A program made the translations under genes and the position numbers. The notes beneath the pieces were generated by a model. That model was not told where the DNA came from. It searched no databases and worked only from the letters and a program-made list of their open reading frames with translations. A DNA stretch of 64,000 bases from Hyphomicrobiales bacterium. Its GTDB lineage: Bacteria; Pseudomonadota; Alphaproteobacteria; Rhizobiales; Rhizobiaceae. The stretch spans positions 5,449 to 69,448 of the forward strand of contig UCJH01000024.1 of NCBI GenBank assembly GCA_900472785.1, given 5' to 3'. Position 1 is the stretch's first letter. Each line of letters begins with the position of its first letter. Below, in pieces: positions 5,307-9,831 of the stretch.

Positions 5307-8813
<3,507 letters not shown>

Positions 8814-8942
8814 GCCCGCACATCCCGATTCCGTGAAGATCCAAGGATAGACTGTTTCGGCACGGCGGAGTCCAGTTTCGAGCGCGTGAAAGTCGATTAT
8901 TTTGCGCCAGATGCCTGTTATGCACAGCAAGGCGCGGGGATT

Positions 8943-8966
8943 TCAGGCGGCGATATCGCCGCCTGA
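8943..8966. repeat. Perfect 24-bp palindrome between the small SOS ORF and dnaE
   Basis: TCAGGCGGCGAT is followed immediately by its exact reverse complement. As RNA it can fold into a 10-bp GC-rich stem with an ATAT loop. On the minus strand it begins 17 bases after the stop of the ORF at 8983-9069 and lies 130 bases before the dnaE ATG. There is no U-tract after it, so it is not a canonical terminator. It may be a transcript-stabilising hairpin, a weak terminator or a protein-binding palindrome. Confidence 0.75.
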
Positions 8967-8982
8967 GAAATTACCGGCAGCT

Positions 8983-9069
8983 TCACATGCCCATGACGAT
9001 GATCGATAGGCTGGCAATAAACAGGCTGATCGAGGCGAAGGCGGCGAGGTCGCGAATGAGGTCAGTCAT
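8983..9069 (-). CDS. Unannotated 28-aa single-span membrane protein, SOS-linked (SidA-like candidate)
   Basis: ATG at 9067-9069 starts a 28-codon frame ending in TGA at 8983-8985. The peptide begins MTDLIRDL and is then almost wholly hydrophobic from residue 9 to the end (AAFASISLF..., ...SIIVMGM), long enough for one membrane span. AAGGGAG lies eight bases before the ATG, a strong ribosome-binding site. The upstream region carries CTTGAC, an 18-base spacer containing a GTTC-N7-GTTC LexA box, and CAAAAT. Caulobacter SidA, a 29-residue inner-membrane protein induced by LexA loss, blocks division through FtsW. Size, topology and regulation here match that type, but I have not shown sequence homology. 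It could also be a TisB-like depolarising peptide. Coding is inferred from the ribosome-binding site, hydrophobic pattern and operator. Confidence 0.7.
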   Translation of the reverse strand: MTDLIRDLAAFASISLFIASLSIIVMGM

Positions 9070-9098
9070 GCAGAGGCTCCCTTTTCTATTATGTTTCC

Positions 9099-9128
9099 AT
9101 TTTGTTCTATTTTTGTTCACGCGTCAAG
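9099..9128 (-). promoter_or_regulatory. Promoter with embedded LexA (SOS) box for the 28-aa ORF
   Basis: On the minus strand CTTGAC (9123-9128) and CAAAAT (9099-9104) are 18 bases apart. Between and touching them is a LexA-type direct repeat, seen on the plus strand as GTTC (9104-9107), seven T-rich bases (TATTTTT) and GTTC (9115-9118). LexA bound there would block RNA polymerase. The repeat spacing is exactly that of alphaproteobacterial SOS boxes. Transcription would start near 9092 and give a leader of about 23 bases before the ATG at 9069. The plus-strand gene at 9253 starts 135 bases away and could conceivably share the site. Confidence 0.75.
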
Positions 9129-9252
9129 AAACAAATTCGAATATGTGCATGCCGGTACGCGTATGGTTAATCCCGAAATTCTGATGCTGGACGGAACATC
9201 GACGGCGCTTTATCGTGGGCGTGCAGAAGCATTTTTTGGAGAAAAGAAGCCT

Positions 9253-9831
9253 ATGAAATTTCAGCTCGCGGCCATTGTGATTGCTGGGTTTCTAGCAACG
9301 GCGGCGCATGCCGGCGAACCGATCGATCCCGAGCGGATCGCCTCCGCCACCACCGGGGACTGGGATGGCGACGGCGATATAGATCTGGCAATGCTGGTGC
9401 GTCCGGCGCAGGATCAGGGGACGGCGAAGAACGCCATCTACATCCTGTTCAATGATCCGCTTTCGGGAAGCATGGAAGTGAAGGCGCTGGCAAACGACAA
9501 GGTCGAGGGCGATTTCATCTATGTCGGCAACGAGGCGACGATCTCGGCACTGCCGAACGGCTCCATTCTGGTGAGCACGAAAAACGGCGCCGAAGGCCAG
9601 CGGCACTACGAGCAGAAGCTCACCCTCGCCTACCGCAATTTCCAGTTCGTCGTCGCCGGATACACCTTTACCCGCTCCGACGACAACGGCGTCGAGAACT
9701 TTCAATCCTGCGATCTCAACGTGCTGACCGGCAAGGGCAAACGCGATGATGCGCCATTTTCGGTGGCGCCGCGCTTTACGACGATCGAGGACTGGAACGA
9801 CGAGATGGGCACCCAGTCCTGCAATTATTGA
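9253..9831 (+). CDS. Exported small acidic protein with an Asp-rich calcium-loop-like motif
   Basis: The protein has 192 residues from ATG 9253, which has GGAG 10-14 bases upstream and opens a clear signal peptide (MKFQLAAIVIAGFLATAAHA, cleavage after residue 20). The open frame extends to 9091 but that part is not protein-like. Residues 36-44 read DWDGDGDID, the loop pattern of FG-GAP/VCBS repeats and EF-hand-like calcium sites, here present once. The rest is a mixed beta-rich sequence with two C-terminal cysteines that might pair (QSCDLN and TQSCNY). I know of no assigned function. It ends 10 bases from the stop of the convergent lolD. Confidence 0.75.
   Translation: MKFQLAAIVIAGFLATAAHAGEPIDPERIASATTGDWDGDGDIDLAMLVRPAQDQGTAKNAIYILFNDPLSGSMEVKALANDKVEGDFIYVGNEATISALPNGSILVSTKNGAEGQRHYEQKLTLAYRNFQFVVAGYTFTRSDDNGVENFQSCDLNVLTGKGKRDDAPFSVAPRFTTIEDWNDEMGTQSCNY

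Follow-up and report, generated by a model that had tools for sequence, protein, structure and literature searches.

A 28-codon gene for a predicted SidA-like membrane peptide with a putative LexA operator lies upstream of dnaE1 in Rhizobiaceae

The window analyzed here (the whole stretch of 64,000 nucleotides from a Hyphomicrobiales bacterium of the family Rhizobiaceae) carries on its minus strand a 28-codon ORF that runs from an ATG at 9069 to a TGA at 8983 and has dnaE1 as its downstream neighbour (Table 1). The encoded peptide, MTDLIRDLAAFASISLFIASLSIIVMGM, is predicted to form a single hydrophobic span (best 15-residue Kyte-Doolittle mean 2.39). A first-pass annotation, made from the sequence letters, had called this frame and its one-span product; the AAGGGAG ribosome-binding site that it listed with eight-base spacing is also present, yet lies 7 nt from the ATG. 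No intrinsic terminator was found by scanning between the ORF and dnaE1, zero Pfam or NCBIfam models match the 28-residue peptide, and an Rfam search of positions 8700-9400 up to E 1 returned zero matches. Divergently oriented at 9253-9831 is an ORF whose 192-residue product begins with a signal-like stretch and matches FG-GAP weakly, below cut-off; it is present at 19 of the best 30 loci described below (window counted) and could share the operator region with the 28-codon ORF.

Table 1. Features of the 28-codon ORF and its surroundings in the window
Feature	Coordinates	Strand	Basis or remark
28-codon ORF, SidA-like single-span membrane peptide (predicted) MTDLIRDLAAFASISLFIASLSIIVMGM	8983..9069	-	frame conservation, codon use, profile scores
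Ribosome-binding site AAGGGAG	9077..9083	-	5' of the ATG
-10 hexamer CAAAAT	9099..9104	-	promoter scan; 17-nt spacer holding most of the operator
-35 hexamer TTGACG	9122..9127	-	promoter scan
Putative LexA operator, GAAC-N7-GAAC direct repeat (GAAC-AAAAATA-GAAC; + strand GTTC-TATTTTT-GTTC)	9104..9118	-	motif match
Degenerate third half-site AAAC	9093..9096	-	one 11-bp period past second GAAC
Perfect palindrome CAGGCGGCGATATCGCCGCCTG, 22 bp, separating the 28-codon ORF from dnaE	8944..8965	.	sequence scan
dnaE1 (DNA polymerase III alpha subunit), neighbour on the downstream side of the 28-codon ORF	5307..8813	-	likely start ATG 8813

The sole promoter-like site recovered from a scan of 8780-9300 is TTGACG-17-CAAAAT (9127..9099, minus), which overlaps GAACAAAAATAGAAC and is the same site that had been written as CTTGAC-N18-CAAAAT, with the frame shifted by one. 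Its spacer indeed holds the direct repeat reported earlier (9118..9104), which matches the GAAC-N7-GAAC motif named for alphaproteobacteria (PMC3323433). By itself the promoter match is not beyond chance (1 found in 8780-9300, 0.5 expected), and occurrences of GTTC-N7-GTTC in the window are near chance (5 found, 2.2 expected, with 6 of 100 shuffles reaching 5). Both matches are raised above chance level by the excess of the T-rich box form GTTCNNNNTTTGTTC in the host genome (12 copies, against 1 for the reversed control), by the SOS-like frames that adjoin several of these boxes, which we take to be uvrA/ssb, imuA, dinB, a uvrD-type helicase and a methylguanine-DNA methyltransferase from their resemblance, by the recurrence of the frame in 30/30 loci and by codon selection. 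Another box of the window, GTTCAACTTTTGTTC (2545-2559), lies directly upstream of another ORF, which reads like dinB and is a second likely SOS gene.

Searching the same family with the peptide gave matches (E up to 1) for 227 of 394 genomes and 60 of 109 genera, many of the weaker matches among the 227 being possibly due to chance; the loci read in detail are the best 30 of these 227, the window counted. In all 30 the ORF is exactly 28 codons long and followed by dnaE1 on the same strand, and an exact GAAC-N7-GAAC stands 47-50 nt 5' of the ATG in 27, the other three having AAAC-N7-GAAC instead. Conservation of start, peptide and LexA box upstream of dnaE, proposed earlier as a check, was thus recovered in relatives, and the companion codon-level check gave a pN/pS of 0.17 across 71 close pairs of ORF sequences. 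The 29 distinct ORF DNA sequences average 0.59 for pS and 0.17 for pN; their variability is 0.235/0.065/0.488 at codon positions 1/2/3, highest at the third position and lowest at the second. These results show purifying selection on the peptide sequence of the 28-codon ORF.

The operators of the best 30 loci also tend to carry a third half-site (at most one mismatch from GAAC) at +22, exactly 11 bp on, which occurs in 25 of the 27 exact-box operators, while neighbouring offsets score 0 to 2 of 27. The same periodic half-site was found at 0/9 other boxes of the host genome and, elsewhere, at 5/18 boxes of family representatives without a strong peptide hit, 5/24 of the order, 0/18 of the class and 1/9 of Caulobacteraceae. 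The three tandem half-sites at an 11-bp period (9093-9118 in the window; loci L011-L040) possibly constitute an extended LexA operator.

Counterparts occur in named rhizobia, whose Sinorhizobium and Shinella records share 81-82% DNA identity with the dnaE region of the window, in keeping with the surveyed family being Rhizobiaceae. Sinorhizobium meliloti Ak57 encodes a 28-residue family member, MADFVRDLAAFASMSLFIVSISVIALGL, flanked by dnaE and a LolD-type gene and preceded by an operator (TTGACTATC-GAACGGAAATAGAACAAAAAGGGAAC) with three exact half-sites at an 11-bp period. Sinorhizobium sp. K101 has a 28-residue member upstream of dnaE with exact boxes and a layout like that of Ak57, and Shinella sp. 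PSBB067 has one, also upstream of dnaE, with one exact box plus a degenerate third half-site. The Sinorhizobium copies begin MAD instead of MTD or MTE. A tblastn search of the plasmid collection with the peptide gave zero matches though three of its records carry the family, this mode being powerless for so short a query. No CDS is listed at the position of the Ak57 peptide, in a collection whose feature table is incomplete. The earlier view of an unannotated ORF needs amending, as the gene has probably been seen before by Ribo-seq. In S. meliloti 2011 the translated small ORF sORF25 lies in the 5'-UTR of dnaE1 and is included among the 5'-UTR ORFs named as possible uORFs (PMC10117765), in a main text with 0 occurrences of SOS and 0 of LexA. 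Since one family member, MADFVRDLAAFASMSLFIVSISVIALGL, lies upstream of dnaE in strain Ak57, sORF25 is probably the S. meliloti copy of the 28-residue peptide gene.

Beyond the family, the narrow profile A1, run across the class, matched 98 of 385 genomes at E up to 1, the best match outside the host genome reaching only 0.0024 over 15 positions. This search was uninformative, and a locus-based search was therefore used, covering 208 of 211 dnaE loci beyond the best 30, each with at least 300 nt upstream (L106, L108 and L142, with <300 nt, were dropped). The set consists of 64 family representatives without a strong peptide hit (68 minus 2 without a dnaE match and 2 with a partial match), 47 loci from the same order, 81 from the class and 16 from Caulobacteraceae. 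Order loci derive from 48 chosen among the better matches from 76 genomes in which dnaE was matched (L076 was counted with the family instead; the host genome and G029 were left out), and class loci from 84 chosen among the better matches from 338 such genomes.

An exact GAAC-N7-GAAC occurs within 600 nt upstream of dnaE at 69 of the 208 loci (18 family, 24 order, 18 class, 9 Caulobacteraceae). Control patterns in the same loci gave 10 for the opposite orientation GTTC-N7-GTTC, 2 and 3 for reversed forms and 1 to 5 for other spacings. An ATG mini-ORF with a hydrophobic span starts 10-60 nt past the box at 61 of the 69 box loci. The background was 56 of 2780 for random positions at boxless loci and 42 of 1380 for antisense positions. 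Also, the family profile, which was partly trained on box loci and is not fully independent of them, matches 66/69 box loci versus 16/139 boxless loci (Fisher p ~9e-35). No recognisable SidA-like peptide was found at three exact-box dnaE loci (L080, L084, L204), and neither box nor peptide at 62 of the 81 class loci read. In 42 of the 64 representatives, which had been preselected for lacking a strong direct hit, the 1000 nt upstream of dnaE gave no family match.

Absence of the peptide at dnaE is frequently accompanied by its presence elsewhere. A genome-wide search with the family alignment A3, in which rows are partly hand-picked, was run on 51 of the 68 representatives, namely 12 known positives, all of which were found, and 39 without the peptide at dnaE. 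From reading of the matches, 30 of these 39 carry it elsewhere in the genome (26 at E <1e-3, 4 at 0.001-0.01); it was not accepted genome-wide in nine, three of which gave weak matches (E 0.005-0.04) and seven of which have genomes of at most 2.0 Mb. Thirty-one peptide loci were defined as away from dnaE by having no dnaE motif downstream in the fetched stretch, L391 and L401 coming from one genome; at L407 dnaE lies ~1.5 kb downstream. An exact box stands at most 110 nt before the ATG at 28 of the 31 (17 at -48) and is missing at three. The genome that contributes two loci, G059, has two SidA-like peptides, one with the box and one without. The operator-peptide unit is not tied to dnaE, which amends the earlier reading of an effector beside dnaE. 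A LolD-like gene is found in the fetched stretch at 22 of the 31 away loci, which suggests that in many lineages dnaE became separated from an ancient lolD-sidA-dnaE arrangement.

The published point of comparison is SidA of Caulobacter, a 29-residue SOS-induced inner-membrane division inhibitor that acts on FtsW and also interacts with FtsN (PMC4211646) and whose gene is under LexA (PMC12700426). A comparison by DnaN found no Caulobacter among the 73 sampled genomes (best identity 60%). The C. crescentus clamp DnaN (PDB copy) was used as query, leading to 80 Caulobacteraceae loci, and 16 genomes were followed with dnaE searches; the Caulobacter origin of the PDB chain was borne out by its 100% identity to C. 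vibrioides DnaN. A hydrophobic ORF of 29-30 residues lies upstream of dnaE in 16/16 of these genomes (29 residues in C. vibrioides DSM 9893), with boxes that are exact at nine loci and have one mismatch at seven. In published numbering, sidA is CCNA_02004 (PMC11034885), dnaE and recN are CC1926 and CC1983 (PMC1839093), and recN is also ccna_02062 (PMC12700426). The offset between the two series is 79 at recN and CCNA_02004 equals CC1926 + 78, which places sidA within about one gene of dnaE. From length, position and locus tags we infer that the 29-residue ORF of C. vibrioides is the published sidA.

Kinship between the rhizobial and Caulobacteraceae peptides was evaluated with profile models built from all box-associated ORFs by automatic alignment, a few doubtful ORFs (e.g. 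L072, L156) included; controls were 255 ORFs from unrelated loci and antisense strands, 232 to 248 of which were scored per model. A model of 75 peptides without Caulobacteraceae scored 14/14 Caulobacteraceae peptides at 19.4-29.6 bits, the best of 248 controls reaching 10.8, and 0/4000 shuffles scored as high as the C. vibrioides peptide. Likewise, a model built on 36 peptides that belong to neither Rhizobiaceae nor Caulobacteraceae placed 14/14 Caulobacteraceae peptides above its 243 controls. Conversely, with Rhizobiaceae left out, the window peptide scored 24.1 bits (best of 239 controls 10.6; 0/2000 shuffles reach its score) and 23/23 Rhizobiaceae peptides exceeded all controls. With a profile of Rhizobiaceae only, the C. 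vibrioides peptide scored 0.8 bits, equalled or bettered by 68/232 controls and by 713/2000 and 833/2000 shuffles of two kinds, and 3/14 Caulobacteraceae peptides stood above all controls. Comparison of Rhizobiaceae with Caulobacteraceae by hhalign, for one pair, gave a probability of 43.6 and an E of 2.4e-4. Nearly all A3 rows are free of internal gaps through the core, and an [RKQ][DE]xx[AS] core recurs before the span in most of them. Homology through intermediate families is thus supported by the profiles, and the direct pairwise link between the rhizobial peptide and SidA appears weak. The idea of a rhizobial SidA counterpart, which had been a guess from size, operator and promoter, is in agreement with both the position of the Caulobacteraceae ORFs and the profiles via intermediates.

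Compared with Caulobacter SidA, the window peptide is of similar length (28 versus 29 residues), has one hydrophobic span, is preceded by GAAC-type direct repeats, is encoded upstream of dnaE and shares a core R-[DE]-x-x-A-x-x-S-x-x-x-F. It differs in having few identities overall (18-29% to the six Caulobacteraceae rows of A3), in lacking the FVW and Cys of Caulobacteraceae, in which the Trp and Cys are fixed, and in that operators of its family usually include a third half-site at a distance of 11 bp. YneA, SosA and ChiZ are also small DNA-damage-induced membrane division inhibitors, with FtsW as a target shown (YneA) or modelled (PMC13396833). However, YneA has a LysM domain (PMC13396833), and yneA and chiZ are described as unrelated genes (PMC4211646).

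Computation supports the coding capacity of the ORF, the promoter-operator layout, its conservation, the homology via intermediates and the linkage of operator and peptide without dnaE. The ORF is a real gene behind a LexA-type operator and, with good confidence, orthologous to SidA, the division-inhibitor mechanism being carried over from SidA by analogy. The full reading, a SidA orthologue repressed by LexA that would stall division via FtsW, is considered likely, with induction, FtsW target and division arrest all modelled on SidA. LexA bound to GAAC-N7-GAAC within the promoter would keep the peptide gene off; RecA on single-stranded DNA would trigger LexA cleavage, upon which the promoter would fire. 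The 28-residue peptide, by analogy with SidA, would then insert into the inner membrane and keep the FtsW/FtsI/FtsN complex of septal synthesis from becoming active, thereby preventing division over damaged chromosomes. Read-through may also raise dnaE, although this would not be the conserved part of the response.

Other readings differ in what the ORF would act upon. A translated leader (uORF) tuning dnaE1 expression, as suggested for sORF25, would make the LexA box an element serving dnaE, and this is consistent with the same-strand position upstream of dnaE1 in 30/30 best loci, with the negative terminator scan, with the mention of sORF25 among ORFs possibly acting as uORFs (PMC10117765) and with the listing of dnaE among genes predicted to be under LexA in multi-chromosome alphaproteobacteria, as had been reported for Caulobacter (PMC3323433). 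Yet selection acts on the amino-acid sequence, 8700-9400 has no Rfam match, the counterpart in Caulobacter acts in trans if it is indeed SidA, and the peptide persists at the 31 loci without a dnaE motif in the fetched stretch. That 28 of these keep the exact operator argues strongly against a dnaE leader peptide, and we regard such a role as highly improbable. At the other extreme, the ORF is only 28 codons long and matches no Pfam or NCBIfam model, as a chance ORF beside a real LexA box might, but frame conservation, codon selection, profile scores, box-peptide co-occurrence, the away loci and the S. meliloti Ak57 copy make this hardly credible.

Among SOS-induced peptides, TisB of E. coli is another short membrane peptide under SOS control, and its antitoxin is an antisense RNA of the IstR type. 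The window locus has no Rfam RNA in 8700-9400, although an unlisted antisense RNA would escape such a search. DinQ, likewise SOS-controlled, is described as a toxic single-span peptide (PMC3567139), and the length, single hydrophobic span and LexA-type operator of the ORF are compatible with a membrane-depolarising toxin of the TisB/DinQ type instead of a divisome inhibitor; given the profile kinship with the Caulobacter peptide and the [RKQ][DE]xx[AS] core before the span, this is very unlikely. A member of the SidA family that blocks division through another target in rhizobia, such as a different septal or polar-growth factor, is unlikely too: the late divisome is shared and no positive evidence for another target was found, against the low identity to Caulobacteraceae rows. 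In favour of such a target, SidA itself interacts with FtsN too (PMC4211646). A low-confidence model puts SidA on FtsW TM7 (PMC13396833). The SidA orthologue acting on FtsW is the preferred reading.

Among the literature matches listed, in which subscription journals are thinly covered, neither a described SOS division inhibitor for rhizobia nor a rhizobial SidA member was found. It seems rather probable that SidA is an old alphaproteobacterial DNA-damage checkpoint and not a Caulobacter speciality, that many families have the operator-peptide unit next to lolD/dnaE, that it is sidA for which the LexA site ascribed to dnaE exists, and that a usual length of 28-38 codons caused the gene to be overlooked. 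The peptide gene offers another owner for this LexA site, and the diverged peptide series may be useful for dissecting how FtsW and septal synthesis are controlled. As a conserved candidate whose promoter is defined, it makes SOS division control in rhizobia directly testable.
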